Notes under the pieces: model-generated
Told to the model about the DNA's origin: nothing
What the model saw: the letters and a program-made list of their open reading frames with translations, nothing else
Database searches by the model: none
Shown here: piece by piece, positions 36,234 through 64,000 of the stretch
Layout of the letters: every line of letters starts with the position of its first letter
Position numbering within the stretch: the stretch's first letter is position 1
Program-made: the position numbers and the translations under genes
DNA from: Frankia sp. AiPs1
GTDB lineage: Bacteria > Actinomycetota > Actinomycetes > Frankiales > Frankiaceae
Length of the DNA stretch: 64,000 bases
Reading direction: 5' to 3'
Assembly (NCBI RefSeq): GCF_023716945.1
Contig: NZ_JAMQQF010000001.1
Coordinates: 1 to 64,000 of the forward strand

Positions 36234-37715
36234 TTGTTCCAGGTACCAAGATCTGGGATGCTGTGTTCATGGCGGACGGAGGACGTCGTAGAACGTTCGG
36301 CAACTGCACGATGGGCGGCCGTAGAAGGTGTCCGAAAGGTTTGGGGTTCCGGTGCGGATCGCGCATGGGGTGGCGCCATCACTAGCCTGGAGCAGCTGCG
36401 AGGCTTCATCCTCGAGGAGGTACTGGCCCGGCTCCTTTACGAGAGCGGGTACCGCCTCCTGGTGTCCGAGACACAGGACCCCGAGGCGCTCAGACGGGGC
36501 GCGCACGGGCTCCTCGTTCGAGGCCGAGGCACCGATCACCAAGCCGACGTGCTCGGCGAGTTGACGTTGCCCGTCCCCTTCTCGCTACCACTGCGCGTGT
36601 TTGTCGAAGCAAAATATCGCGCCGCGAAGACGGGCCTCGGTGACGTGCGGAACGCGCATGGAGTCATTCACGACGTCAACGAGCACCACTCGACAGCCTC
36701 AGCGGGTACCCGCGCAATCCCGATGCGGCGTTACCACTACCGGTACGTTTTGTTCTCCACTTCCGGGTTCACCAAGCCGGCCCAGCAGTTCGCCCTCGCC
36801 CAGCAGATCTCCCTTGTGGACCTGTCGAGCCCAGGATTCGCCGGGCTGTTGGGCGCCGCCGACAGGGTCGCGCAGGGGCTCTATGGCCTCGCTGAAGAAG
36901 CGCAGATATCACCGTTTCCGACCGGGCAGGTCCGCACCGCTCTCAGGCTGGCGTTCGGCACCTGGACCGACAGGGAATCCGACGATATCGATGACGTAGA
37001 CACCGATGATGCGGTCAGCTTCCAGCGGCGCACGAGTCGAGCCCGATGGGCAAACCAGCTGAACCCGGCGCAGCGGGAGCTTCAAACACTTCCCCTAGAT
37101 CGTCTGGAGTCTCTCGCGGCCGAGCTCGCCGGACGGCTCGGCGAAAATTTGGTCTTCGCCTTCCCGTCTGCGCCCTTTGTGCTGGCTCTGCGGCCCTCCG
37201 ATCTCTCCGCGCTCGACACCTACGTCGCTCGCAATGGCTCCGAGGTAGACGTGAACATCCTATTCGTGACCCGACGCGAGGTCACCGGAGACTGGATGAT
37301 CGTGCCCGCCGACGGTTCACGATCCTTTCAGCTCCAGTTCTCGTTACCGGCGCTACTCGAAGACTGGATTCTTCACGACGAGCGCACAGCGGCGCGTCGC
37401 GCACGCGGCATCAAGGCCGAACTGCTGTCCTCGATCTCGCTGTTCCGAAACGGCCGCCTCATCCGGCTACAGTACGAACGCCATGGCGGATCTCGCGTTC
37501 CTGATCTGGGCGACATCCCGGGTGATCATGGCAACCTTCGACGTCGCTCCCGAGGCCTGGCGACGCCACCTCGACCTCCACCTGGATGGGTTGCGCCCCG
37601 AGGCGGCGCACCCGCTGTCCGTTCCACCGATGACCGCCGAACAGGTCGCGACCGCGCTGCGTGCCGGCTAACTCGGTCTATTTGCACAGGTCAGACGGTT
37701 CGTGGCGCAGCATAG
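36234..37715 (+). CDS. Mrr-like PD-(D/E)XK restriction endonuclease, C-terminus fused to foreign frame
   Basis: A 493-codon frame. Residues 50-130 look like the nuclease core of type IV/Mrr-like enzymes: a helix 'LEQLRGFILEEVLARLLYESGY', then Asp105 in 'DHQADVLGEL' and 'VFVEAKYR' with Glu125 and Lys127, giving D...E-x-K. A long middle follows ('YVLFSTSGFTKPAQQFALAQ' and others). From about base 37470 the frame loses gene-like character and overlaps a TetR remnant in another frame, so the last 75 or so residues are probably read-through after a recombination joint. The true start is unclear; none of the ATGs has a good ribosome site. Base composition is less GC-rich than neighbours, suggesting transfer. 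Confidence 0.62.
   Translation: MFQVPRSGMLCSWRTEDVVERSATARWAAVEGVRKVWGSGADRAWGGAITSLEQLRGFILEEVLARLLYESGYRLLVSETQDPEALRRGAHGLLVRGRGTDHQADVLGELTLPVPFSLPLRVFVEAKYRAAKTGLGDVRNAHGVIHDVNEHHSTASAGTRAIPMRRYHYRYVLFSTSGFTKPAQQFALAQQISLVDLSSPGFAGLLGAADRVAQGLYGLAEEAQISPFPTGQVRTALRLAFGTWTDRESDDIDDVDTDDAVSFQRRTSRARWANQLNPAQRELQTLPLDRLESLAAELAGRLGENLVFAFPSAPFVLALRPSDLSALDTYVARNGSEVDVNILFVTRREVTGDWMIVPADGSRSFQLQFSLPALLEDWILHDERTAARRARGIKAELLSSISLFRNGRLIRLQYERHGGSRVPDLGDIPGDHGNLRRRSRGLATPPRPPPGWVAPRGGAPAVRSTDDRRTGRDRAACRLTRSICTGQTVRGAA
37483..37671 (+). pseudogene. TetR-family regulator C-terminal remnant
   Basis: A 62-codon frame overlapping the end of the nuclease frame. It reads like the last helices of a TetR repressor: 'VIMATFDVAPEAWRRHLDL', 'HLDGLRPEAAHPLSVPPMT', ending with 'AEQVATALRAG'. 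No HTH part is found upstream, since the nuclease gene occupies that space. The remnant marks a breakpoint near 37470-37500. Confidence 0.6.
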
Positions 37716-37716
37716 C

Positions 37717-37785
37717 GGACCATGCGTACCAGCATCCGAACTGTTCGATCTTGGTTGTCGTCCCTGAAATCACTGTCCGACCGGT
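37717..37785. repeat. Dispersed 69-bp repeat, copy A
   Basis: About 87% identical to 50942-51010 in the same orientation. On the minus strand both encode T-G-R-T-V-(I/T)-S-G-x-x-x-K-I-x-x-F-G-C-W-Y-x-W-S in frame, so the repeat is probably part of a coding region or the end of a mobile element. It lies between the TetR remnant and the HepT gene. Confidence 0.85.
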
Positions 37786-37871
37786 CACAGACCGGCCGAG
37801 GCTTGGAGACGCTTCCGTCGCCGCTCCATCGTCACCTGCCGCCGGACATAGAACGCGAGCCAGACGCGCGG

Positions 37872-38243
37872 TCAGTGCGGCTGGTCGAGTTGGCTGGCGA
37901 TGAATGGGAACTCGGCTTTGAGGAGCGTCAGCAGTTTCTCCCGGAGTTCCCGCAGCGCGGTCGTGGCGATCCGCCACACAATTGACCAATCGACCTCGAA
38001 GTACGCGTGAACGGCGATGTTGCGGAATCCGGTGACGGACCGCCACGGCACGTCCGGCCACCGTCCGCGGATCTCGGGCGATACTCGTCCGGCCGCCTCG
38101 CCGATCACCAAAAGTTTCTGCAGGACGGCACTCTGAATCAGATCGCTGTCCAGGAACGCGGCCTCGTCGACCTCCTGGACGAATGCCAGCGCGGCGACCG
38201 CGGCTTCGATCATATCGACGAGGTAGAGCTCATCACGCCGCAT
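37872..38243 (-). CDS. hepT: HepT-like HEPN ribonuclease toxin (DUF86)
   Basis: A 123-residue all-helical DUF86 protein. The RX4HXY ribonuclease motif is complete at residues 74-81 (R74, H79, Y81; 'GFRNIAVHAYF'). HepT toxins are RNases blocked by AMP-ylation by the partner MntA. It overlaps the MntA gene by 11 bp, with its ATG inside the MntA 3' end, so the two are translationally coupled. The antitoxin gene comes first, as usual for this system. Confidence 0.87.
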   Translation of the reverse strand: MRRDELYLVDMIEAAVAALAFVQEVDEAAFLDSDLIQSAVLQKLLVIGEAAGRVSPEIRGRWPDVPWRSVTGFRNIAVHAYFEVDWSIVWRIATTALRELREKLLTLLKAEFPFIASQLDQPH

Positions 38244-38523
38244 AAAGGACCCGAGCCTCCGCGAGCACTCGATCGCGGATGACCCACTTCAACCGGGACT
38301 TGGGCACCAGGTCGACACGGCGACCCACGATCTTTTCAAGATCATCCCGAAGGTCGACGATCTCGAAGCCAAGCGTCGAGTCGGGCGCCAGCACGTACAG
38401 CAGGTCGACGTCCGAGGAGTCGGTGTCCTCGCCGCGCGCCACCGAGCCGAAGACGGACAACTCGGCGACGCCATAGCGCCGGCACACCTCGGCAATCCGG
38501 CTGTCACGAAGATCGATGGTCAC
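38233..38523 (-). CDS. mntA: MntA-type minimal nucleotidyltransferase antitoxin
   Basis: A 96-residue minimal nucleotidyltransferase with the exact GSX10DXD motif (Gly26-Ser27 ... Asp38, Asp40; 'FGSVARGEDTDSSDVDLL'). By family it AMP-ylates HepT, silencing it. The GTG at 38523 is chosen because a perfect GGAGGTGAT ribosome site is 9 bases upstream; a longer frame from 38559 would include that site. The pair sits in accessory DNA next to the nuclease and excisionase remnants. Confidence 0.88.
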   Translation of the reverse strand: MTIDLRDSRIAEVCRRYGVAELSVFGSVARGEDTDSSDVDLLYVLAPDSTLGFEIVDLRDDLEKIVGRRVDLVPKSRLKWVIRDRVLAEARVLYAA

Positions 38524-38778
38524 ATCGCCATTATCACCTCCGGACAGCCACGACCGCACGACCCAGGCACCGCCTCACGCGCGACGCCCGCGGCGTCCTG
38601 CGAGTAGCCCTCCGTCAGTTCGGCGAGGCGGGGCGTACGGGCGCGGCCAGTGGCATGGCTCAGGGTTACATGACGCCTGTCGATCCTGCCACCGGCCGCG
38701 CGGGTGCTGCACACGGTATGGACACACCGTGGTCGTACACACCGTGATCGTGACGATGCTGGCCTCGCCGGGGGATTG

Positions 38779-50829: not shown

Positions 50830-50941
50830 CCAGGCCTTCAAGATTAATTGCTGACGCAGCGGCATCGCATGGGCATCACATCGACTACTCATCGATCTTC
50901 GTCCTGGCTGAGCCGTCACAAACGGCCTGGTCAGAGGGTGT

Positions 50942-51010
50942 GGACCATGTGTACCAGCATCCGAACCGTTTGATCTTGGCTGCTGGCCCTGAAGTCACTG
51001 TCCGGCCGGT
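50942..51010. repeat. Dispersed 69-bp repeat, copy B
   Basis: About 87% identical to 37717-37785, same orientation. The shared minus-strand peptide T-G-R-T-V-x-S-G-x-x-x-K-I-x-x-F-G-C-W-Y-x-W-S is kept in frame, and the differences include silent ones. It lies close to the Tn3 fragment. Confidence 0.85.
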
Positions 51011-51043
51011 TGCTACCCGGGCCCTGACCAGGGACGATGCCCA

Positions 51044-51853
51044 GTGACCGTGCCAGCAGCAACATCATCTAACCAATCGAACAGGTGTCCCGAATTCCTG
51101 GCGGTGTCGGACGTTTCGGCCCGCCTTGTAACGGTGATCGTCGGCGTGGTGGTCGCGTTGACGTTCCTTTTCGGCTTCGGGAATGTCCTTGCGCTTGGGC
51201 TGCGGCTCGGCGTTCCGATGTGGGTAGCGCCGCTGGTCGCTCCCGCTGTCGACCTATCGGTCGTCGGCCTGCTGCTCGGTAGCCGGTCACTCGCTGTGAA
51301 CGGCGGTCCAGTCGAGGTGGTGCGCTCGGCACGGAGGCTGCTCATCTTCGCGAGCATGGTAACGCTGGCATTGAACATCGCGGAACCCCTGATCGCCGGC
51401 CGTTACGGCAAGGCCGCGTTCGACGCCGTCGGACCGCTGCTTCTTATTGGGTGGGCAGAGGTCGGACCAGGTCTTCTGTACGCCATGCAGAACCCTGCGA
51501 GCGAGCGGCCACTCGCCGACTCACGGGACGCCGAGAGGCATTCGGGGGCCGTCGAGGGCCGGGACCCGCTGCCTACGCCCGCGGCCGAGCGGTCGCCGGG
51601 TGGGGCTTCCGGGAAGGTGTCGTTGTCCCATGAGGCCGCGCGCGAGGCGCGTAGGCAGGATCTTCTCCACCGGGCCCGCGCCGAGGATGTCCTGCACTGG
51701 CAGCAGCACCAGCGCCCGATCTCCGCTGAGACCCTCCGCAAGCGACTGCGCGTTGGGACGCCGACGGCGCGCGGTCTGGTCACGCAGCTCCGCTGCGATA
51801 CCCATTCCCAGATCGAAGAGAACACCCGGCTACCGACGCAACAGGACCTCTGA
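51044..51853 (+). CDS. Membrane protein with C-terminal HTH, similar to actinobacterial transfer-associated proteins
   Basis: A 269-residue protein with four hydrophobic helices in residues 26-150 ('RLVTVIVGVVVALTFLFGFG', 'MWVAPLVAPAVDLSVVGLLL', 'LLIFASMVTLALNIAEPL', 'AVGPLLLIGWAEVGPGLL'). A charged linker and a C-terminal winged-helix-like segment follow ('ISAETLRKRLRVGTPTARGL'). Proteins of this plan occur in conjugative and integrative elements of actinobacteria, near spread (Spd-like) and replication genes; this link is inference. The GTG start at 51044 has no clear ribosome site. No identified function. Confidence 0.5.
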   Translation: MTVPAATSSNQSNRCPEFLAVSDVSARLVTVIVGVVVALTFLFGFGNVLALGLRLGVPMWVAPLVAPAVDLSVVGLLLGSRSLAVNGGPVEVVRSARRLLIFASMVTLALNIAEPLIAGRYGKAAFDAVGPLLLIGWAEVGPGLLYAMQNPASERPLADSRDAERHSGAVEGRDPLPTPAAERSPGGASGKVSLSHEAAREARRQDLLHRARAEDVLHWQQHQRPISAETLRKRLRVGTPTARGLVTQLRCDTHSQIEENTRLPTQQDL

Positions 51854-52080: not shown

Positions 52081-53742
52081 ATGGCGGGCCGGGGCCTGTT
52101 CACGGACAGGCAGGCACAGAAGATCATCGATGATATTGCTGCGGGTAGATGCACGCAGGCTGAGGCAGCTGCATTGCATCAAGTCTCGCCGGCAACGATC
52201 AGCAACCTCGTGCGCGGGCACACGTACCCGGACTTGCAGCGTGGCCCGACCGGACTCACCGACGAGCGGCGCTGGTATGGCCTGCCTGAAGTTCCGGAAC
52301 GTCGCCGCGCCGGCGTCGCAGCCTTTTGGGACCAGACGGCACGGAGCGGCGACAATGAATGCTGGCCGTTTCGCAGCGCCGCGCCCGGAGAGTACGGACA
52401 GGCCGCGCCTGCTCTCGTGGGAAGCCCGTCGGCACACGTCGTGGCCTACACCCTGGCTAACGGCCTACCCAGCCGTCCGCCGCGCGGTCGTGTCATCCGG
52501 CATCTGTGCAACAACCGCCCGTGCTGCAACCCGGCGCACCTGCTGGAAGGGACTGACGCGGAGAACAAGCAAGACCGGTTCCGCGCCGAACGCGCTGGAC
52601 TGGTGGGACCCATCGAGGTTACCGATCCGGTGAGACCGCCAGAGGGCGGGTGGATCATCGAAGTTGGGAACGTCGCCGAGCTGGAGCAGCTCGCCCGAAT
52701 CGCGGAGTTCTGGTCCCAGGTCGATCAGGCAGGCGGGCCGGATGCCTGCTGGCCCTGGACCGGCAAGACCATGCACAGCAGCGGCTACTACGGCCAGATG
52801 CGCTGGGACGGTCGCAACGCGGTACCGGCCCACCGCATCGCCTATGTCCTCAGGTACAAGATGGAGCTGTCGGACCTGTCGCCGGCGCAGCACGTCCGTC
52901 ACCTGTGCCCCGGCGGCGCGAACAGTCTTTGCTGTAACCCTGACCACTTGAAGATCGGAACGGCCGCCGAGAACCGGGCGGATACCGTGGCCGACGGCCG
53001 TGTCCCACGTGGCGAGCAGCATCACGCCGCCCAGATCTCGGACGCCGACATCGCCGCGCTGCGCCACGCCTACTGGTCGGTCGCCGAAGACAAGCGTCCC
53101 AAACTCACGGACCTCGCCCAGCAATACGACGTGAGTGTCTCCACGATCGGAAACTGGCTCGAGGGTACGAGCCGTCTCGACGCGGGCGGCCCCATCGGTC
53201 AGCTGCCCGTCAAACGGTTCCTGAACGCGGAACTCGCCCTCGAAATACGACACCGCCATCACGACGGCCAGGAGTCCATCACGAGCCTCGCAGCTGCCTA
53301 CGGAGTCGATCGCGAGACCATCGCGGACGCACTCAAGGGGCGGTCTTTCGCCGATGCCGGCGGCCCTCTCGGAGTGCGCCCGCAACGCCGCGGCATGTCC
53401 GAGAAGACCGTGTTGGAGATCAGGCACGCGGTCGCCGACGGTGAAACGGTCCGCGAGGTCGCAGCGAGACTCGGCGTCAGCGAGGACGCCGTCCGCAAGA
53501 CGGCGAGCGGCCGGACCCACCCGTCGGTCGGCGGACCGATCACCCGCGCTCAGCTCACCGACGCCCAGGCTCGTGCGATTCGGCAACGTCATGCCCAAGG
53601 CGAGTCACGCGCCACCCTCGCGGAAGCGTTCAGCAGATCACCAGCAACCATCGACGACGTCCTCGCGGGACGAACACACGCCGACGCCGGCGGCCCGCTT
53701 ACCGAGGTGATGCCCCGAGGCCAGTGGCGTCGGGATGCCTGA
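52081..53742 (+). CDS. HTH - two HNH domains - four HTH modules: modular nuclease-like protein
   Basis: A 553-residue protein with an unusual layout. An N-terminal HTH (about 26-47, 'QAEAAALHQVSPATISNLVR') is followed by two HNH_3-type zinc-binding nuclease domains. The first has 'ECWPF' at 93-97, 'AHVVAY' at 118-123, 'RHLCNN' at 140-145 and 'CCNPAHL' at 148-154; the second has 'ACWPW' at 222-226, 'AHRIAY' at 250-255, 'RHLC' at 273-276 and 'CCNPDHL' at 284-290. Four more HTH units follow (about 343-364, 400-421, 457-478, 512-533), each ending in 'AGGP' or 'VGGP'. HNH_3 proteins are often homing or phage nucleases. GGAGGG precedes the ATG. It converges with jetD. No partner is known. Confidence 0.8.
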   Translation: MAGRGLFTDRQAQKIIDDIAAGRCTQAEAAALHQVSPATISNLVRGHTYPDLQRGPTGLTDERRWYGLPEVPERRRAGVAAFWDQTARSGDNECWPFRSAAPGEYGQAAPALVGSPSAHVVAYTLANGLPSRPPRGRVIRHLCNNRPCCNPAHLLEGTDAENKQDRFRAERAGLVGPIEVTDPVRPPEGGWIIEVGNVAELEQLARIAEFWSQVDQAGGPDACWPWTGKTMHSSGYYGQMRWDGRNAVPAHRIAYVLRYKMELSDLSPAQHVRHLCPGGANSLCCNPDHLKIGTAAENRADTVADGRVPRGEQHHAAQISDADIAALRHAYWSVAEDKRPKLTDLAQQYDVSVSTIGNWLEGTSRLDAGGPIGQLPVKRFLNAELALEIRHRHHDGQESITSLAAAYGVDRETIADALKGRSFADAGGPLGVRPQRRGMSEKTVLEIRHAVADGETVREVAARLGVSEDAVRKTASGRTHPSVGGPITRAQLTDAQARAIRQRHAQGESRATLAEAFSRSPATIDDVLAGRTHADAGGPLTEVMPRGQWRRDA

Positions 53743-54047: not shown

Positions 54048-55253
54048 TCAAGAATTCGCACCGTCTACTGGAAGATCGGATGTCACCATCGGACCTAGCG
54101 GGTCGGACGAGTCCGGTCCCAGCAGAAGGTCCAGGAACGAGGCGTTCTCCTGGTAGACGGGCGTCTCAGTAACTCCGCCCCCGAACTGTGCGGGTACCGG
54201 CTTCAGGACGCGCGCGCCAAATCGCGTCCGTACGAGTTCTGAAATATTCTCACCAGAGGAGTCCTGATCTCCACTATAGAGAATTGGGACGCCGTCGTCG
54301 GCGAGGTATTGAAGGAACTCGTGGTCTACGGCCGCGAGGGACCCCGATGTGCATGCGAGGGGTTCTTGGCATCCGCGGATGATGGCCTCCTCGATCACCG
54401 AAGGATTCTCGACGACGAGGACGGGCCTGGCTGGCGAAATGTGCGGCCGATGCATGATCAAGTCGTAGAGGCTCAGGTGTAGAGGGCGCCTTGATGCTGT
54501 GGCAGCGCGTATAGCGTCGTCGATGGGTCCGTCGCCGGTGGCAACGAGGTTGAAGCCGATGACGGTGGAGCTGATCCGGTCCACGTGGATTCCACAGCGC
54601 GCGAGGAGCGCGGCTCGGCTGTTCGGCGCGATGGCCGTGCTCAACGGCTGGCCGGTGAGCTCGGCAACGAGCATGACGAGCTTGGCGCCTTGGCCGGGCG
54701 GGTTGAGGTCGAAGTAGTGGGGATCACCGGCGCAGTAGAGCGACAGCCGGGGCAGGGGAACCGGACGGTCGAGCGGTAGGAGCGTGTGGGCGCGGGCCAG
54801 AGCGTCGATGAGGCGGCGGCGGTCCTCGACCGAGTTCTCGGACAGGCCACCTGCGCGCAGGTACGCAAGGAGCTGAGGCGCGCCAGGTAGCACCGAGTGG
54901 GCGTAGGCCCACACGTCGGCCTTCATCGCGGCGAGCCGGCGGTTGGGCTGCAGCACTTCTGGGATGCCGACGGTCGTCTGCAGGATGTCGGCCAGCTCGA
55001 TGGTTGGCCCGAGGGCTTCCAGAACGCGGTCGATTGGTACCGTGACGCGCCCGTCTCGCGCCGTCAGGCGGGGGCGGCGAGTCCCGCGTGTGGTGCTCGG
55101 CGCGTAGGCGAGCCATCCGTTGATGCGAGCGAGACCCGTGCCGCTCAGGGTGACGCGCACGCTCTTGATTGCCGTGAGGTCCCCGGTGGCGACCCAGCGG
55201 TCTCGGATGGCTTCCCAGAGCGGTCGCACCTCCGGGTCGTGAAGGTCGCTCAC
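54048..55253 (-). CDS. jetD: Wadjet type II nuclease subunit JetD (DUF3323/DUF2399, TOPRIM)
   Basis: A 401-residue protein of the TIGR02679 group: an N-terminal DUF3323-type region ('RVTLSGTGLARINGWLAYAP', 'PIDRVLEALGPTIELADI') and a C-terminal DUF2399 TOPRIM-like domain. The latter shows Glu282 in 'VLVVENPSVIEEA' and the Asp pair in 'GDQDSSGE' (329, 331). By analogy with JetD/MksG it is the DNA-cleaving subunit, activated when the SMC complex extrudes small circular DNA. Its GTG overlaps the jetC stop (GTGA at 55250-55253), last gene of the operon. Confidence 0.9.
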   Translation of the reverse strand: MSDLHDPEVRPLWEAIRDRWVATGDLTAIKSVRVTLSGTGLARINGWLAYAPSTTRGTRRPRLTARDGRVTVPIDRVLEALGPTIELADILQTTVGIPEVLQPNRRLAAMKADVWAYAHSVLPGAPQLLAYLRAGGLSENSVEDRRRLIDALARAHTLLPLDRPVPLPRLSLYCAGDPHYFDLNPPGQGAKLVMLVAELTGQPLSTAIAPNSRAALLARCGIHVDRISSTVIGFNLVATGDGPIDDAIRAATASRRPLHLSLYDLIMHRPHISPARPVLVVENPSVIEEAIIRGCQEPLACTSGSLAAVDHEFLQYLADDGVPILYSGDQDSSGENISELVRTRFGARVLKPVPAQFGGGVTETPVYQENASFLDLLLGPDSSDPLGPMVTSDLPVDGANS

Positions 55254-58200
55254 CGTAGGTCGTCGGTGACGTCGTCGGAGGTCCGGGCAGCCTGTCCCGG
55301 GATGGAGATCCGTACGGCTTCGGGGAGGCCGGCGCCGCGCCAGATGTAGGGCATGGCGAACCGGGCGCCACTCGCACTCCTGATGATCTGGTGAATGGCT
55401 GTGGTCCGCAGTTCGGGAACGAGCAACTTGCCCATCGTTGGCAGGGTGGCTAGCACATCGAGGTCCCAGTCGCGCAGGAGCGCGAGCAGGGTGCGCATGT
55501 TGGTCTGGTCCACGGCCGCGTCGAGTTCGTCTATGAACGCCATCCGGGGCCCGATGTATCCGGGTGTTGAGTAGAAGGACTTCACTGCGGCGAGCAGCGG
55601 AAGCATGCTGGCCAGGCGTTTCTCGCCCGTCGACAGCGTGTCCAGCGGATTCTTTCGTTTGGTGATTTCACGGAAGACCTCGCCGGGGTGTGCCTCGTCG
55701 GAGAATGCCTTGTGGGTGACCTCCACGTGCCAGGTGTACCAGGTGCGGTAGTCGAAGACCCTCGCGGTGCGCTCTGACGCCGATTCCGCGGTCTCCTCGT
55801 CTGCCAGTCGCGCGATGAAGAACTCGTACATGTCGTCGAAGTTGCCGTCGACGTTGGCGGCTTGGACGTGGCGCCGCGCCTCCTGAGCGATGGGATCGTC
55901 GAGCCGTGGCTTCCAGCCGAGGCGGACCCCGACTCTCTCGACGCCGGTACGTACGCCCTGGAGCGTGGCGTCGATGGCGGTGACGATGCGCTCGGCGAGG
56001 TCTATGCGGGCGGCGATCTGTGTGCGTAGCTGGGTGAGGAGGGAGCCTTTGATCTCGGTGCGGAGCTTTTCGTCGTAGTCCTTCTGAAGGCCGTCGAGCC
56101 GCCGGCCGACGTCCGCGATGGCCTGCCGGAGGGGCCGAAGCCGGCCTGCTGTGTCAAGTGTGGCGTCGCTTTCGGCGACGACGATACGGCGGAGCCCGCC
56201 CGTGCCGAACTGGTCCTCGCTAATGTGACGGCCCATCCGGATGAAGACCTCGGCCACGGGGCGGACCTCGCCCGCGAGCCTGGTCGACTCCCGCTGCAGT
56301 TGTTCGCGGACGCTGCCTGCTGCCACCCTCTGGGAGAGGCGCCCGGCCGCGGTAACTGCTGCGGCGAGGTCATCGGGACGTTCGTAGCTGAGGCCGTCCT
56401 CGACGTCGGCGATCAGGCCATGGCCGAACAGTTCGAGGAGGCGGTCGAAGGCGCCTGCCCGGTCCTGGCGGGTTCTATCGAGATTCTCTGCCAGCGTGTC
56501 TGCTCGTACTTCGAGGCCGGCGAGGTGTCGTTCACTGGCCCGGGCGTTCGCCTCCTCTTGGGCGGCCAGGTCCTTGGCCTTCTGTTGCTCCGTACGGTTG
56601 TGCTCGTGCTCGCCGAACAGCTCCTGAAACGACTGCTCATGTACACGGCGTTCCTCGTCGAGCCTGTGCTGCTCGGTGCCGGCGTGCGCGGTCGTCTTTC
56701 GTTCGGTCTCGGTCGCGCTGTCTGCTCGCTCGGAGGCGGTGGTGGCGGCGCCTCGCGCAGCCTGCGCCTGGCGACGAATCAAGATTGTCCGCTCGGCGGC
56801 GCTGCTCCATCCCTCGATGGACTTCGCGAACCGTCCGACGGCGCCGCTGAACTCGTCGAGGTCGCTTTCGTTCAGCGGCAGCCGGCGTCCGTCCTTGGTC
56901 GTGGCGGCGGCGCGGCATAGCCGTCGTGCTTCCTCAGTAGCGTCCTGGCATTCCTCCAGGTCGCCGCGTGCGCGGGCTTCGTCTGCGGATACCCGCTCGA
57001 ATTGCTTCTCCGCTTCGTCGAGCAGAGCGAGGGCATCGCGTAGATCACCCAAGGGAGGCAGGTCATCCCGGGCCTGGTGCGCCTGACCATCTCGGGAGCC
57101 TGCTTCGTCTGCGGCTTCCTGCGCGGTCTCTGCAGCCTCGTCTGCCAGTCGCTTTGCCTCTGCCCAGTGGGCTTGGTCATCCAGCGCGCGGGCAACCGCT
57201 TCGGCCCGACTGCGGCTGGGGTGTAGGTGCTGGAGCAAGGCGGCGCAGGCGACCACAGCCGCGGCAACGCCGTCTGGGTCGGCGGGCGCGGATGCCTGCT
57301 CGCAGACGTCTGCGGCCAAGCCGTCCGCGGCCTGTGCGTCGTCGTGGCTCCCGCGTGCGCGCTGCGCGGCAGCGTCGTGGGTCGCGGTCGCGACGGTGAG
57401 CGCGGTCTGCGTCTCTGCGAGCGCGGTCCGCTCCGCGAGCAGGTCGCTGAAGTCGGGCAGGACCGCCTCGCGTACAAGGATTTCGATGTGATCTTTGGCT
57501 GTGTCGAACCTTGCGCACGCGGCCTTGATCTCCTGAGTGAGCGTAAGACGCCGTCCGTGGAGTTGTTCCAGCAGGCGTCGCCGTTGCTCGGCGCGTGCGG
57601 TCGCACCGATGAACTGCGGCTGCCAGCCGCCGGGGGCTGAGGCCGTAGCCCAAGCCGTTCGCAGTTGGTCACCGATGACGGCGATGTCGTTGGCGGTAGC
57701 GTCCGTGTTGTAACCGATCTGCGCGAGGACACCTGTGATGAACTCGGCGCCGATCGTGTCGGTGGGCTGAGCGATCAGGACATCCGCGAGGGTGCGACCG
57801 TCGGCGGGATCGCCGGGGCGTAGCAGCACCTCGCCGGCGATCGCGTTGCTGCTGGGATCCAGCCAGGCGTCGAGGATGCCCGCGGTGAGCAGCGTGCCCT
57901 CGACCACGGCGCGTTCCCTCTCGGGCAGGTCGGGTGCGAAGTCCACTAGCGCCCAGAGGGGTGCGCCCTCGCGTCCGGCGCGGTCAGCGCGCCAAGGCGG
58001 AGCCGAAGGCGGTAGCTCCTCTGATTCTGCCTTCGTGATCTCCTCGTTGAGTGCCCGTAGCTGCTCCTCCAGGCTGCGTACGTCACGTCTGGCGGCTTCC
58101 AGCGCTTCGCGCAGTGGGGACTCCGCCCTGTCGCGGGCGACGGTGGCGATCTGGGTCCGAAACGCGTAGAGGTCTCCCTCTCGGGCGTCGGATTCTTCGG

Positions 58201-60499
58201 GGATCTCCTGCGGCTCGAGGGCGAGGATCTGCAACGACACCGACCAGTTCGTCACGTTTTCGGTGTATGCGGCGACTGCGTTGTCGAGGCGGGACCGCTG
58301 ATGGGCATGGCGCCCTACGACCCGCGCCAGTTCTGCGGCTGCCTCTGCGGCGATCTCGGCCTCGGTGGTGGCACGGTCGCGGAGCTGGACCGCTATGGCC
58401 AATGCCTGTGCTGCCTGGCGCAGTATCTCGGCCCGGTCGGCTGCCTCCTGTACGGCTGCGTCCCCATGAGGCAGCCCGCTGAAGGAAGAGCCCAGACCGA
58501 GGTCGACCGCGTCGAGCGTGTCGATCCACTGCAGAACAGCCCGCGGTGGTGACGGCAATGCTGTGATTGTCTCTTTGATCGCGGCCGTCGCAGCTTGAAG
58601 CCGGCCAGCTGCGGTCGCGGTGACCCCTAGTGCTTCCTCGAGGTGCTCTCTGGCGGATCCGGCCGCCGTGCGCGCCGTGTCGTGCCGTGCGATGGCCCCT
58701 GCCCAGTCGATACGGCTGACAGCGCTCTGCAACGCCTGGTCCGCCCACGCGGTGACCGCGTCTGGGTCGATCGGCATGAGGGCGAGCAAATGCATTGGCA
58801 CGGGACCGAGGACCGGACTGTGCGCCTCGGTGAACGCCCGCAACGCCCGCGCTGCCTGCTCGTGGGCGCCTGCCACCTGCGCCTTACACGCGCTGAGGCC
58901 AGGTTCCGCCGCGCTGACCGCGTCCGCCGCCGCCGTATGTCTGGCACTCGCTTGTGCCTGGACACCCTCGCGGACTCCGACGTGGGCGAGGGCACTACCA
59001 ACCTGGCGAATGACTGTCTCGCGGTGCTGGACCCACGTCTTGCCAGGCTCAGCGACCGCGTGGAGGTCCTCCTCGACGAGGGTTTCGGGTTGTCCGAGGT
59101 CAGATGTGACCACGTCGGCCGCGGTTTGGAATGGCTCGGCGAGGATCTCCGCGCTGACCTCGTTCGAGTGTCTGCGCACCGAGGCCATGACGCTTACCAA
59201 GTGACGGCGCGTCGAGTCGAACGCCTCGACGGCCGTGTGCTCATCGCGCCTGGCTTGCTCGGCTTCCTCGCGTCGCTGCTTGGCAGTCTCGGTCGCGAGC
59301 CTGGCTGTGTCGTGCGCGGCCTCCACCGCGAGGGCGAGTGCGGGCAGGTGACTGCCGGGGTGGCCGTCAAGGCGGCGCGACAGCGCCTCCCCGGTGCTCC
59401 TCAGTTTGGTCAGGTGCTCGTCGGCGGCGATTTTGGCTGCCGTCGCGCGGTGGAGCCGGCCTTGGTAATCCGCCGTTTCGTCGGTCAGCCGGGCCGTGTC
59501 GCGCTCCACTCGCTCCACCGCGCCATGAGCGTCGAGCAGCGCATGCGCGGTAGCTGCCGCGGCGGTATCCGCGTAGCGGCCGTAGGCCTTGGACAGCCTG
59601 TTCAGCAGCTCATGCTCCTGCTTGGCCTTGTTGACCTTGTCGAGCAAGTCGTTGGACTGGGCGAGGTTCTTCGCCAGTAGCTCGACGTACTGGGTCGGGA
59701 CCGCCGGCAGGGCTGAGGTGAGCGTGTCCTGCATCTCGGCGGCGGTCATGCGGTCGTTGACGCGGACGCTGCGCAGGGCCCGCAGCACAGTGGTCAACGC
59801 GGCCATTTGATCGCGGTCGGTGCCGGGAAAGAGTTCTAGACGGACCGCATCGGCGTAGGCGGCCTCCTCGTTGACCGCGGCGCCGTGCTTGCTCGCCGCC
59901 TTCAGCAGCCGTTCCTGGCTGGTAAAGATCTGCGCGTCGCCCGGAGGCAGTTGTTCGCACAATCCGTCGATGTCGACGGGATCGCCCTCTGACTGCAGGT
60001 GAAGGTCGACGCCGACCCGACGTGATGTGACGAACCAGACCCGCTCCAGCGCTTCGGATTTCTGGCCTCGCCAGCGGATCCAGAGGCCGAGAGTCATCCA
60101 CCGCAGATCCCCGTCTGGGGTTTGGAATCCGAACTCAAGCCACCAGGCTCCGGTCTTCTCCCTGCCGGGGGTTCGGTTGTGATGGCGCTCGGCCAGGGTT
60201 CCGGCACCGCGTTGCGACATGGACAGGGCTGAGGTGCTGGTGTCCCCGTCGATCAGGGTGGGGAACCACTGGCCGCTTGTCAGTGACTTGCCTGAGCCGT
60301 TGGGGCCGACGAGGGCGCTCCAGCCGTCGTGGAACAGAAACTGCTCATCGACCCATGCCCAGGAGTTGACCACGCCCGCGCGCACGGGTTGCCAGCGTCC
60401 GACCGCGGTCGGCAGCGCGTCGACGGTGAGGGCGTTGGTGGCGCCGGTGCCGACGTCGAAGAGCGTGACGTCGACGCGGTTCTCACTGGGGTTGGTCAC
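55250..60499 (-). CDS. jetC: Wadjet type II SMC-like ATPase JetC (TIGR02680)
   Basis: A 1749-residue SMC/SbcC-type ATPase. Walker A GPNGSGKS is at residues 65-72. A very long Glu/Arg/Ala-rich coiled coil fills the middle, broken near 770-900 by a hinge-like globular part ('WRADRAGREGAPLWALVDFA', 'LLRPGDPADGRTLADVLIAQ'). The C-terminal ATPase half has the ABC signature 'LSTGEKRL' and Walker B 'RMAFIDELDAAVD', with 'LLALLRDWDLDVLATLP'. Family knowledge: the motor that extrudes DNA loops and recognises small circular plasmids. The GTG at 60499 (VTNPSENRVD) is preferred; it overlaps jetB by 17 bp. The longer ORF to 60592 reads through jetB. Confidence 0.92.
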   Translation of the reverse strand: MTNPSENRVDVTLFDVGTGATNALTVDALPTAVGRWQPVRAGVVNSWAWVDEQFLFHDGWSALVGPNGSGKSLTSGQWFPTLIDGDTSTSALSMSQRGAGTLAERHHNRTPGREKTGAWWLEFGFQTPDGDLRWMTLGLWIRWRGQKSEALERVWFVTSRRVGVDLHLQSEGDPVDIDGLCEQLPPGDAQIFTSQERLLKAASKHGAAVNEEAAYADAVRLELFPGTDRDQMAALTTVLRALRSVRVNDRMTAAEMQDTLTSALPAVPTQYVELLAKNLAQSNDLLDKVNKAKQEHELLNRLSKAYGRYADTAAAATAHALLDAHGAVERVERDTARLTDETADYQGRLHRATAAKIAADEHLTKLRSTGEALSRRLDGHPGSHLPALALAVEAAHDTARLATETAKQRREEAEQARRDEHTAVEAFDSTRRHLVSVMASVRRHSNEVSAEILAEPFQTAADVVTSDLGQPETLVEEDLHAVAEPGKTWVQHRETVIRQVGSALAHVGVREGVQAQASARHTAAADAVSAAEPGLSACKAQVAGAHEQAARALRAFTEAHSPVLGPVPMHLLALMPIDPDAVTAWADQALQSAVSRIDWAGAIARHDTARTAAGSAREHLEEALGVTATAAGRLQAATAAIKETITALPSPPRAVLQWIDTLDAVDLGLGSSFSGLPHGDAAVQEAADRAEILRQAAQALAIAVQLRDRATTEAEIAAEAAAELARVVGRHAHQRSRLDNAVAAYTENVTNWSVSLQILALEPQEIPEESDAREGDLYAFRTQIATVARDRAESPLREALEAARRDVRSLEEQLRALNEEITKAESEELPPSAPPWRADRAGREGAPLWALVDFAPDLPERERAVVEGTLLTAGILDAWLDPSSNAIAGEVLLRPGDPADGRTLADVLIAQPTDTIGAEFITGVLAQIGYNTDATANDIAVIGDQLRTAWATASAPGGWQPQFIGATARAEQRRRLLEQLHGRRLTLTQEIKAACARFDTAKDHIEILVREAVLPDFSDLLAERTALAETQTALTVATATHDAAAQRARGSHDDAQAADGLAADVCEQASAPADPDGVAAAVVACAALLQHLHPSRSRAEAVARALDDQAHWAEAKRLADEAAETAQEAADEAGSRDGQAHQARDDLPPLGDLRDALALLDEAEKQFERVSADEARARGDLEECQDATEEARRLCRAAATTKDGRRLPLNESDLDEFSGAVGRFAKSIEGWSSAAERTILIRRQAQAARGAATTASERADSATETERKTTAHAGTEQHRLDEERRVHEQSFQELFGEHEHNRTEQQKAKDLAAQEEANARASERHLAGLEVRADTLAENLDRTRQDRAGAFDRLLELFGHGLIADVEDGLSYERPDDLAAAVTAAGRLSQRVAAGSVREQLQRESTRLAGEVRPVAEVFIRMGRHISEDQFGTGGLRRIVVAESDATLDTAGRLRPLRQAIADVGRRLDGLQKDYDEKLRTEIKGSLLTQLRTQIAARIDLAERIVTAIDATLQGVRTGVERVGVRLGWKPRLDDPIAQEARRHVQAANVDGNFDDMYEFFIARLADEETAESASERTARVFDYRTWYTWHVEVTHKAFSDEAHPGEVFREITKRKNPLDTLSTGEKRLASMLPLLAAVKSFYSTPGYIGPRMAFIDELDAAVDQTNMRTLLALLRDWDLDVLATLPTMGKLLVPELRTTAIHQIIRSASGARFAMPYIWRGAGLPEAVRISIPGQAARTSDDVTDDLR

Positions 60500-61799
60500 T
60501 GGTGCCGTCCTGCTGGTCGAAGAGATTGTCGGCGAGAAGTGGCTGTTCGTCGTGTGGGTCGGCGGCCGTGACCCGCACCCGCCAGTAGGCATGAGCGCCG
60601 GTCGGAGTCCACAGGCGTGGTCGGTCGCTGGTCGGGGTTAGGACTCCGGCGGCGACCAGGATGGCGATGGCTTCCCTGGTGAGGGTCTTGAGCGCCGCGG
60701 TGGACCGGTAGGAGCGGGCCCACTCGGCGTTGTCGGCTTTGGCCCCTTCGATGACGGCCTGGAATGCGTCCACTGGGAGAGGCGCAGCGGAGTCGTCGGT
60801 GTTCAGCCAGTGCACGATGAGCAGCGCGGCCTGGCCGGCGAGGGACCGCGGCTGGGGGAACTCGAGATCGGTGCTGCGCCGGTCCGGGTCGCCCGTAAGC
60901 CACAGGTCGCGGCGGACGATACACGTCAGCCCGGCGGTGAGAGTCGCGTTCAGCGCCTGTCTGCGTCCGCCGGGCGAGGCCAGGTAGCGTGCCTCGCTGC
61001 GGACACCGTCGAGGACAACGACCGCGTCGTCGATCACTGTTCGCAGAGCGCGGTGCCGTCGCTGAAGGTCGCGTTGGTTCTCGGACACATGCTTAGGTAG
61101 GTCTTGCTGGTCCTCGCACAGTTTCGCGATGTGCGTCCGCGGCTCGCCGATGTCGATCTGTAGCTGGGAGATGGCCGGTGCCGCTAGCAGGTCGTTGAGC
61201 CGCTCAGGGTTGCAGGTGATCACGACGTCGTTGGCGGCTGCTGTGCCAGTCGCAGCCAGCGGTCCGTCACACGTGATGATCCGCCACTCCTGCAGGAGCT
61301 CAAGCGCCTCGACGAACGCGCGGCGATGCTGTTCCGCTCGCGCCCGCGGCTCGCCTGCCTGGGTAACGACGTTGAAGGCCGGCAGGTCGCCGCGGCTCGA
61401 CTCGGCCGCGCAGGTGCGGATGACTTCGCGCTGTAGGTCGCCAAAAGTGATCTCTGGGCGGCGCCAGAGTTGCTCGGCGGCCAGGCACAGCAGGATGAGG
61501 GCGAGCTTCGACGGGCTGCCTGCGTGCTCGCTGGGCAGGGGGCTCCGGTCGGTGGGCGGTCGGTCGCGACGCTTGAACAGGCGGACGTACCGGCCGAAGG
61601 TCGAGACCTTGAGGCGCCATCCCAAGATCGCCTGGAACCATTGCCGAAGGTCGTTCTCGTGGAGACGGGCCTGGCGGTAGAGGTCGGGCTCCGTCTCCTC
61701 GGTGAGGAACGGTTTGCGCAGCAGCGCTGCGATGACCGGTGTCAGATCGGTGAGCGTGTCGTCATCGTCGTCAACGAGGAGGTCCTCGACATCGGTCAT
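60483..61799 (-). CDS. jetB: Wadjet type II subunit JetB (DUF2398/TIGR02678, KITE-like)
   Basis: A 438-residue DUF2398 protein. The N-terminus is acidic (DVEDLLVDDDDD), then winged-helix segments with 'ALLRKPFLTEETEPDLYRQ', 'LRQWFQAILGWRLKVSTFGR' and 'LILLCLAAEQLWRRPEITFG', and 'SYRSTAALKTLTREAIAIL' near the end. It corresponds to the KITE-type dimer subunit that binds the kleisin. ATG overlaps the jetA stop (ATGA at 61796-61799), so translation is coupled. Confidence 0.9.
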   Translation of the reverse strand: MTDVEDLLVDDDDDTLTDLTPVIAALLRKPFLTEETEPDLYRQARLHENDLRQWFQAILGWRLKVSTFGRYVRLFKRRDRPPTDRSPLPSEHAGSPSKLALILLCLAAEQLWRRPEITFGDLQREVIRTCAAESSRGDLPAFNVVTQAGEPRARAEQHRRAFVEALELLQEWRIITCDGPLAATGTAAANDVVITCNPERLNDLLAAPAISQLQIDIGEPRTHIAKLCEDQQDLPKHVSENQRDLQRRHRALRTVIDDAVVVLDGVRSEARYLASPGGRRQALNATLTAGLTCIVRRDLWLTGDPDRRSTDLEFPQPRSLAGQAALLIVHWLNTDDSAAPLPVDAFQAVIEGAKADNAEWARSYRSTAALKTLTREAIAILVAAGVLTPTSDRPRLWTPTGAHAYWRVRVTAADPHDEQPLLADNLFDQQDGTSDQPQ

Positions 61800-63307
61800 C
61801 GACGTACCAGGGTCGCCGGTGCGCCTACGGGGGATATCTCAACTCGTACGTCAGGCGCTGTCAGCGTGCCCTCGGTTGTCGGGATCGTGACCACCTGGCC
61901 GGGTCTTCCGGTCGTGAGCCGCATACGACAGCGGAGCGTAAGTGCCTCGCCGAAGCCCAGATCGGCGTCGTAGCTGTCCAACGCCTCTTCGAGGAGGGCA
62001 ACCAGGACCTCCAGGTGAGCACCGTCGATCTCGGCGAAGTGCGCCAGCCCCACCATGCCGGGCGTTACCAGTCCGGCTGAGAGTTCCGCGAGCCGCGCCA
62101 GCTCCGCAGTCGCCGCCTGCTCCTCCGCTTGACGAGAGAGCTCCAGGTTTTCCATCCGCCGCGGCGCGCGAGGCGCCGCCGCGCTGCTGGCCCGGCCACG
62201 CAGGCTCACGGATACTGCTTCACGCGGGGCGGCTGCTGTGATGGCCGCGGGCAGGACGTCGTCATCGTCGATCGTGACCTGCGGATGCTGCGCCGCCCAC
62301 AGCCCGGTCGCGGCAGCGAACACCCCGTCGGCGTCCTCTGCGGATTCCTGTGCGTGTAGCAGCCGGGCTAGCTCGTGGAAGTCCGCTGCCAGGTCACTGG
62401 TGCGGTTGGACGCGTAGTAGCGACGCGTGATGGCCGACAGCAATGCGTCGATCGCGTACAGCGCAGAGTCGATGATCCTGTCGATGTTTCCGCCGGAGCT
62501 GAACCAGGCATCGAGGCTCTCCAGATCCGCGACGGCGTCGTCGATCCACGCTGCTGTACCGCCGGGTGCCATCGCCCCGATTCCCGGGGCGGCGGCCTCC
62601 GCGATGACGGCGTAGCCCGTGGCGCGGACGTCCTGCAAGCTGCGCCGCAACGGCGCGAGCCCTGCCTGGGTGTGCTGAACGAACTGGCGGAGCACGAGCA
62701 TGATCCGGGCGCGGCTCTCGCTGAATACTTCGTCGTCGGTGACATCCTGCTGGTTGAGCATCCGCATCGCGTCGTAGTAGTCGCCTGCGGCGTCGAGCAG
62801 CTGGCCCAGATGCGATCGCACGTGCGTGAGATCGAGTGCCACCCGCATCGGTCCCTCGTCGAGGTGGAGGAGGAGCTCGCGCAGTGTGTCCTGAATGGAC
62901 TCGATCAATTGCGGTGGCAGGGCGAGCACGCGGTCAAGGTCATTGATCGCGTCGCGGACCGACCGCACGATGATGCGGCCCTTCTTGCTCAGCGACCACG
63001 CTTCCTGGCGACGGTGGCCATCGCGCAGGTCCTCCCGGGCGGCCGTCGGGCTCAGGAACGGCAGGACGAGCCGCATCTGGACCAGGCCGTCCAGCCGGGA
63101 GCGCAGCTGCTCGGCGGGCATCGGCTCGCCGTATCCGTCCCGCCGCATCTGCTCGGCGATGTCTCGCATCGTGGACATCGGCGCGGAACCACTGAGCCGC
63201 AGGAGGGCGGAGAGGATCGCCGCGTAGTCCTCGCGCGCCTCGCCGAGTGGCTCGCCGACAAAACGCCACATATCGGGCTCGATGCCCCGCCACCAGTCGC
63301 TTCTCAT
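61796..63307 (-). CDS. jetA: Wadjet type II kleisin-like subunit JetA (DUF2397/TIGR02677)
   Basis: A 503-residue DUF2397 protein: 'WRFVGEPLGEAREDYAAILS' and 'MRRDGYGEPMPAEQLRSRLD' with winged-helix content, a helical middle ('MRMLNQQDVTDDEVFSESRA'), and a C-terminal beta-rich part. It corresponds to the kleisin that bridges the SMC heads. ATG at 63307 has GCAGGGGGGG upstream. It is the first gene of the operon; 145 bp separate it from the SbcC-like gene on the same strand. Confidence 0.9.
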   Translation of the reverse strand: MRSDWWRGIEPDMWRFVGEPLGEAREDYAAILSALLRLSGSAPMSTMRDIAEQMRRDGYGEPMPAEQLRSRLDGLVQMRLVLPFLSPTAAREDLRDGHRRQEAWSLSKKGRIIVRSVRDAINDLDRVLALPPQLIESIQDTLRELLLHLDEGPMRVALDLTHVRSHLGQLLDAAGDYYDAMRMLNQQDVTDDEVFSESRARIMLVLRQFVQHTQAGLAPLRRSLQDVRATGYAVIAEAAAPGIGAMAPGGTAAWIDDAVADLESLDAWFSSGGNIDRIIDSALYAIDALLSAITRRYYASNRTSDLAADFHELARLLHAQESAEDADGVFAAATGLWAAQHPQVTIDDDDVLPAAITAAAPREAVSVSLRGRASSAAAPRAPRRMENLELSRQAEEQAATAELARLAELSAGLVTPGMVGLAHFAEIDGAHLEVLVALLEEALDSYDADLGFGEALTLRCRMRLTTGRPGQVVTIPTTEGTLTAPDVRVEISPVGAPATLVRR

Positions 63308-63452: not shown

Positions 63453-64000
63453 TCATGGCAGGAGTCCCCCGTCGAGGTCCTCGTCGACGAGCCGGCCCCG
63501 CTCCAACATGGAGGCCCAGTGCGCCTGGCTTCCGGATTCGTCACGGGTCACGAGGAGCACGTCACCGATGTTCTCGGCCACGGCTCGCATGTGGCTGATG
63601 ACGGCGACGAGCCGTCCGCCCAGGGTCTGTCGCGACAGGGCAGCGAGTGCCTCAGCGAGGGTGTCGGCGTCGAGAGAGCCGAATCCCTCGTCGAGCAGAA
63701 GAGCGTCGGCGCGTCCACCGGCACGTCCAGCGAGGTCGACGACCGCCAGCGCCAGCGCCAGGCTGGCCAGGAATGTCTCTCCGCCGGAGAGCGTCCGTCC
63801 GTCACGTGGCTGCGACGTGTGCCGGTCGATGATGCGGAAGTCGGGGGAGAACGCGAACCGCCCGGCGGTCATGGCCAGCAGCTGGTCGGTAGCCAGTCCG
63901 AGGAGGGCCCGCTGCCGGCGCGCGACCACCGCGGCTTGGAAGCGGCCCGCGGCCAACAGCGTGGACAGTTCGCGGAGGGCGTCGACGAGCGGGGTCGCGG
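63453..64000 (-). CDS. sbcC: SbcC-type SMC ATPase, C-terminal part only (runs off window)
   Basis: The readable 181 codons cover the C-terminal ATPase half of an SbcC/Rad50-like protein: 'LLAMTAGRFAFSPDFRIID', the signature 'LSGGETFLASLALALAVVDL', Walker B 'LLLDEGFGSLDADTLAEALA' and the D/H-loop 'RLVAVISHMRAVAENIG'. The gene continues beyond base 64000. SbcC works with the nuclease SbcD, which would lie further along. The signature differs from that of JetC, so this is a separate ATPase, although co-directional and 145 bp upstream of jetA. Confidence 0.8.
   Translation of the reverse strand, partial: ATPLVDALRELSTLLAAGRFQAAVVARRQRALLGLATDQLLAMTAGRFAFSPDFRIIDRHTSQPRDGRTLSGGETFLASLALALAVVDLAGRAGGRADALLLDEGFGSLDADTLAEALAALSRQTLGGRLVAVISHMRAVAENIGDVLLVTRDESGSQAHWASMLERGRLVDEDLDGGLLP

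Follow-up and report, generated by a model that had tools for sequence, protein, structure and literature searches.

A type II Wadjet locus of a divergent actinomycete clade with JetC arms extended to either side of the hinge

The four-gene minus-strand locus described here raises the question of whether it encodes an ordinary type II Wadjet, a divergent relative with features of its own, or an SMC complex that has given up plasmid cleavage altogether. The window, i.e. the whole stretch of DNA analysed, comprises bases 1-64000 of a 128-kb contig (C315) of a 7.35-Mb actinomycete genome assembled in 1203 contigs. Within it, four open reading frames run from 63307 to 54048 in the order jetA-jetB-jetC-jetD, with successive overlaps of 4, 17 and 4 bp (Table 1); the coordinates and the ATGA, 17-bp and GTGA junctions given in an earlier, sequence-only reading of this DNA were correct. 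The longest mechanical frame for jetC would begin at an ATG at 60592, inside jetB, and encode 1780 aa; we prefer the GTG listed in Table 1, which agrees with the 17-bp overlap with jetB proposed in that reading. Third-position GC lies between 0.78 and 0.82 in all four genes, which is of the coding type for this region, and none of them is broken, so that the earlier description of four intact subunits stands.

Table 1. Features of the jetABCD locus (window coordinates)
Feature	Position	Strand	Description	Evidence
jetA	61796..63307	-	DUF2397 kleisin-like subunit, 503 aa	PADLOC JetA2 2.1e-45; Pfam DUF2397 1.5e-51, above cut-off
jetB	60483..61799	-	DUF2398 KITE-like subunit, 438 aa; 4-bp ATGA overlap with jetA	PADLOC JetB2 2.5e-50; Pfam DUF2398 4.4e-44
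jetC	55250..60499	-	SMC-like ATPase, GTG start at 60499, 1749 aa; 17-bp overlap with jetB	PADLOC JetC2 8.2e-167
JetC Walker A	60284..60307	-	GPNGSGKS	sequence
JetC N-terminal arm, core of extra hinge-proximal stretch	58364..58738	-	~ORF residues 619-743; borders uncertain in coil	unmatched in profile alignment
JetC hinge	57578..57967	-	~ORF residues 876-1005	aligns with canonical hinges
JetC C-terminal arm, extra hinge-proximal stretches	57077..57520	-	58 + 74 residues, within ORF residues ~1025-1172	
JetC signature motif	55619..55636	-	LSTGEK	sequence
JetC Walker B	55520..55537	-	FIDELD	sequence; Pfam SbcC_Walker_B 3.7e-10
jetD	54048..55253	-	DUF3323/DUF2399 TOPRIM nuclease (predicted), 401 aa; GTG start, 4-bp GTGA overlap with jetC	PADLOC JetD2 6.9e-45
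JetD TOPRIM acids	54261..54410	-	E282, D329, D331 (VVEN, YSGDQD)	alignment of 21 JetDs
JetD Q368-E369	54147..54152	-	E369 invariant; canonical EE replaced by QE in long clade	

All four proteins have a type II model (JetA2, JetB2, JetC2 or JetD2) as their top PADLOC match and stand closer to this type than to types I and III; type I models match only weakly (JetB at 9e-5, JetC at 5e-5). Pfam DUF2397, DUF2398, DUF2399 and DUF3323 are all matched above their gathering scores, in keeping with the domain assignments of the sequence-only reading, and JetC has the three ATPase motifs named there together with the coiled arms and hinge of an SMC-type protein. The adjacent JetA, JetB, JetC and JetD genes thus form the type II Wadjet set in the order claimed earlier. 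With the models TIGR02677-TIGR02680, which that reading had named for a check, each of the four proteins gives a match, but under the curated cut-off in every case (102 versus 166, 107.5 versus 124.65, 345 versus 463 and 112.5 versus 196 bits), from which we conclude that the type II identity is genuine yet divergent. Canonical actinomycete type II systems (TIGR02677-02680; PADLOC JetA2-D2; represented by L068, L039 and L048) agree with the window in their domains, their TOPRIM acids and the type II profiles that they match; some canonical systems (L041, L043 and L044) have the gene order C-A-B-D instead of A-B-C-D. Among solved structures, the nearest counterpart is PDB 9qe0/9qe1, which we take to be the Neobacillus vireti type II Wadjet nvJET by way of the structure paper cited in PMC12647877. 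It has the same four subunits, and its JetC and JetA chains are matched by sequence (JetC to 9qe0_A at 4.7e-25 with phmmer; the JetA profile to 9qe0_E at 3.7e-8).

The feature that sets the locus apart is the length of JetC. The sequence-only reading gave its ~1750 codons correctly and treated the system as an ordinary type II Wadjet, overlooking an excess of ~350 residues over the type II norm. When size is taken by profiles from the start of the N-terminal head to the end of the C-terminal head, which renders the choice of start codon immaterial, the window JetC spans 1704 residues, outside the canonical range of ~1330-1500. Six sister systems are similarly long (1625-1731), namely those of Streptomyces sp. 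ADI96-02 (L031), Nonomuraea antri (L032), N. deserti (L033, the same as L063) and the genomes G005 (L036), G218 (L064) and G264 (L065), the window and L031 having the longest JetCs. In contrast, 37 other type II JetCs, which take in those with the longest apparent frames from a scan of 394 genomes, span 1332-1498, with no overlap between the two ranges, and the solved nvJET JetC has 1371 aa against 1749 in the window. We also examined 20 candidates for very long JetCs elsewhere, drawn from the largest stop-to-stop frames in the 394 genomes; those whose length could be taken turned out to be JetCs of canonical length with upstream open extensions. Given that the assembly is in 1203 pieces and that the longest frame starts upstream of the likely start, the length might be suspected to stem from an assembly or gene-model artefact, such as a fusion or a duplicated stretch. 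However, the same length recurs in six independent assemblies, the head-to-head distance is the same whichever start codon is chosen, and profile self-comparison reveals no internal repeat; the relatives exclude an artefact, to which we attach a negligible probability.

The extra residues flank the hinge on both sides and lie in the hinge-proximal halves of the arms, the hinge itself being similar in length to canonical ones. In the N-terminal arm, the stretch listed in Table 1 has no counterpart in the profile alignment, with the canonical arm matched on either side of it, and the net gain is ~200 residues. In the C-terminal arm, the alignment opens gaps of 58 and 74 residues with respect to canonical JetC, a gain of ~110-130 residues that, if wholly helical, would add roughly 16-20 nm. 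In all, the arms exceed their usual length by about 110-210 residues. Since the N-terminal gain is larger than the C-terminal one, part of it may form loops or a side bundle instead of a longer coiled coil, and we do not claim all of it as paired coiled coil. An AlphaFold2 model of ORF residues 340-1500 (the middle 1161 residues; mean pLDDT 76, pTM 0.33) is mostly helical beside a small alpha-beta hinge; in it, the extra C-terminal stretches are predicted to be helical and the extra N-terminal stretch partly helical with low confidence. Internal duplication was considered as the source of the longer arms and rejected, for a sliding profile-profile comparison of non-overlapping windows within each arm stayed at coiled-coil background, with a best probability of ~7-10%.

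The seven long-armed systems form a single group with support of 100/100 in both a JetA tree and a tree of JetC heads, and all six sister systems share with the window the order A-B-C-D, the long JetC and the changes in JetD motifs described below, at ~34-44% protein identity in JetA and JetD. For the nearest outgroup (G690, L075), a search with the C-terminal part of JetC gave no match, the contig ending within jetB. This phylogeny bears directly on a serious alternative, to which we give a little less than an even chance, namely that the locus is an ordinary type II Wadjet in which JetC length reflects functionless drift of the coiled-coil arms. Canonical type II JetCs also vary in length (1332-1498), coil sequence diverges fast (arm identity is 19-27%), and in the type I system ecJET the elbow-to-hinge arms are unneeded for cleavage (PMC12647877). 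Drift would, however, have to account for the clean gap between 1498 and 1625 residues and for the extra residues on both arms. Moreover, all seven members stay long although the relatives aligned have JetA identities of only 37-39% to the window, which suggests that the length has been maintained after a single origin.

The clade is sparsely distributed: of 394 genomes sampled evenly across the class, with extra weight on the family of the window, 5 contain it. No JetA relative was detected in plasmid records or viral contigs, and on this ground we set aside carriage by plasmids or viruses. Small contigs of the window genome carry fragments of a further, canonical type II Wadjet with the order C-A-B-D (L073 on G000:C616, and G000:C455:245-1363), and G005, from the same genus, likewise holds both kinds, L036 being long-armed and L041 canonical. 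The pairing of a long-armed with a canonical system in these two sampled genomes is consistent with different target ranges.

In JetD, the acidic residues E282, D329 and D331 are at the positions named in the sequence-only reading and, together with E369, are invariant in the 21 JetDs aligned. Sequence searches for a solved relative of JetD returned spurious matches only, but a fold search found JetD itself: an AlphaFold2 model built from the 21 aligned JetDs (mean pLDDT 86.7) had Pseudomonas aeruginosa JetD (7til_A, E 1.3e-4) as its best PDB match in Foldseek, followed by Spo11, and Z scores by VIA-align were 11.7 for TopoVI-A, 9.4 for 7til and 8.9 for Corynebacterium glutamicum MksG. By fold, the window JetD thus shares the CAP-like plus TOPRIM architecture of the type I Wadjet JetD (7til) and of MksG (8b7f), whereas identity in the structure alignments is 13-19% and the window system is not type I by profile. 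In MksG, the Mg-binding residues E236 and D279 are required for cleavage (PMC10123090), and we take them to correspond to E282 and D329 of JetD.

Around these invariant acids, the sequence-only reading overlooked that the clade carries changes of its own. The canonical YHGDFD is replaced by YSGDQD in the window: at position 327, His gives way to Ser or Ala in seven of seven long-clade systems, and at position 330, Phe gives way to Q, H, L or I. At position 368, Glu is replaced by Gln, turning EE into QE, in the five long-clade members aligned there, and the C-terminal region of the window JetD is shortened. Such substitutions could alter or abolish cutting. Because the acids are conserved and neighbouring sites are changed, we consider JetD activity likely, not certain. 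Together, the substitutions and the shortened C-terminus invite the view that the locus encodes a DNA-binding or chromosome-organising SMC complex, akin to MksBEF, whose JetD has lost its nuclease activity. We regard this as improbable. In contrast to a nuclease-free MksBEF-like condensin, jetD is present and intact; its metal-binding acids and E369 are invariant; its overlap with jetC makes it look translationally coupled; and the sporadic occurrence of the locus, in an island of low third-position GC, is as expected for defence and not for housekeeping.

As for this island, third-position GC is mostly 0.72-0.85 between ~36 and 95 kb of the contig and mostly above 0.85-0.9 outside, and the lower values with respect to the flanks are consistent with an acquired segment. 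Flanking genes differ among the long-armed loci, which argues against a conserved accessory gene. Upstream of jetA and on the same strand, sbcC and sbcD follow after a gap of ~145 bp (contig 63453-67858, of which 63453-64000 lie in the window; L035:453-4858); among long-armed loci, SbcCD adjoins jetA in the window only. Beyond sbcCD, a divergent cassette of four genes on the plus strand (L035:4835-9559, contig 67835-72559) encodes, in order, an uncharacterised protein, a nuclease that is probably Cas4/RecB-like, judging by eye from EPD...EIK and a cluster of Cys residues, a second uncharacterised protein and an SF1 helicase. Among long-armed loci, this cassette is found near the Jet genes only here and in L065, where it directly precedes the Wadjet. 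L088, L089 and L090 have its last three genes in a cluster with no adjacent Wadjet, and two further genera of the family commonly contain the cassette, again with no Wadjet beside it, so we do not count it as part of the system.

A direct repeat of 84% identity over ~556 bp (50934-51489 and contig 73438-73994) brackets the Jet genes, sbcCD and the cassette. A shorter third copy lies at 37680-37786 of the window, and the repeats surround a repeated membrane-protein-like gene. Close by, on the minus strand at 37872-38559, a HepT-like RNase gene stands beside a nucleotidyltransferase-like partner (PADLOC PDC-S09), likely a HepT/MntA toxin-antitoxin pair. Beside jetD, on the plus strand at 52081-53742, a gene encodes a protein of 553 aa that combines HNH/His-Me endonuclease domains with several helix-turn-helix motifs; a partial inverted relative is found at contig 87094-87638.

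Taken together, we hold it very probable that the locus is a complete type II Wadjet (JetABCD) of a distinct long-armed clade, its role in plasmid removal being drawn from other Wadjets. In those systems, JetABC dimers extrude DNA and, on small circles, meet themselves, whereupon JetD cuts (reviewed in PMC10586767). We infer the same succession of loop extrusion, self-collision and cleavage for this locus. Together with JetA and JetB, JetC dimers would act as an SMC motor that uses ATP to extrude DNA loops; the two motor units would collide with each other when the DNA is a small circle; and JetD, as a Spo11/TopoVI-A-like TOPRIM nuclease, would then cut the circle. Since cutting would follow motor collision, plasmids could be removed with no need for sequence recognition, and jetABCD probably destroys incoming plasmids in this manner.

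What the longer arms might add is suggested by work on how Wadjets pass obstacles. Type I ecJET requires its elbow-to-hinge arms for bypass. In type II nvJET, the hinge has no channel and the complex cannot bypass obstacles, and SMCs lacking a channel tend to have longer coils, which have been proposed to thread obstacles through a bigger lumen (PMC12647877). It is speculative, but conceivable, that the longer hinge-proximal arms of the present clade enlarge the SMC lumen so that DNA-bound obstacles can be threaded, offsetting the channel-less type II hinge. The fuller scenario, in which a separate actinomycete branch has extended its elbow-hinge arms to thread obstacles that canonical type II systems cannot pass and has re-tuned the JetD site, we put forward tentatively and consider rather doubtful as it stands. 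Nevertheless, as the clade lengthens this same region further, the threading of larger obstacles is the most interesting testable reading of the data.

The kind of system is thus already known, and what is new is a little-sampled, long-armed branch of type II Wadjet, whose proteins escape the NCBI TIGR models when the curated cut-offs are applied. Type II JetCs ranging from ~1330 to 1730 residues, alike in their hinge and read out by the same nuclease, form a natural series. In it, plasmid cleavage assays could put to a direct test the proposal of PMC12647877 that channel-less SMCs acquired longer coils to thread obstacles, and so address whether step size, lumen size or obstacle tolerance is governed by the length of SMC arms.
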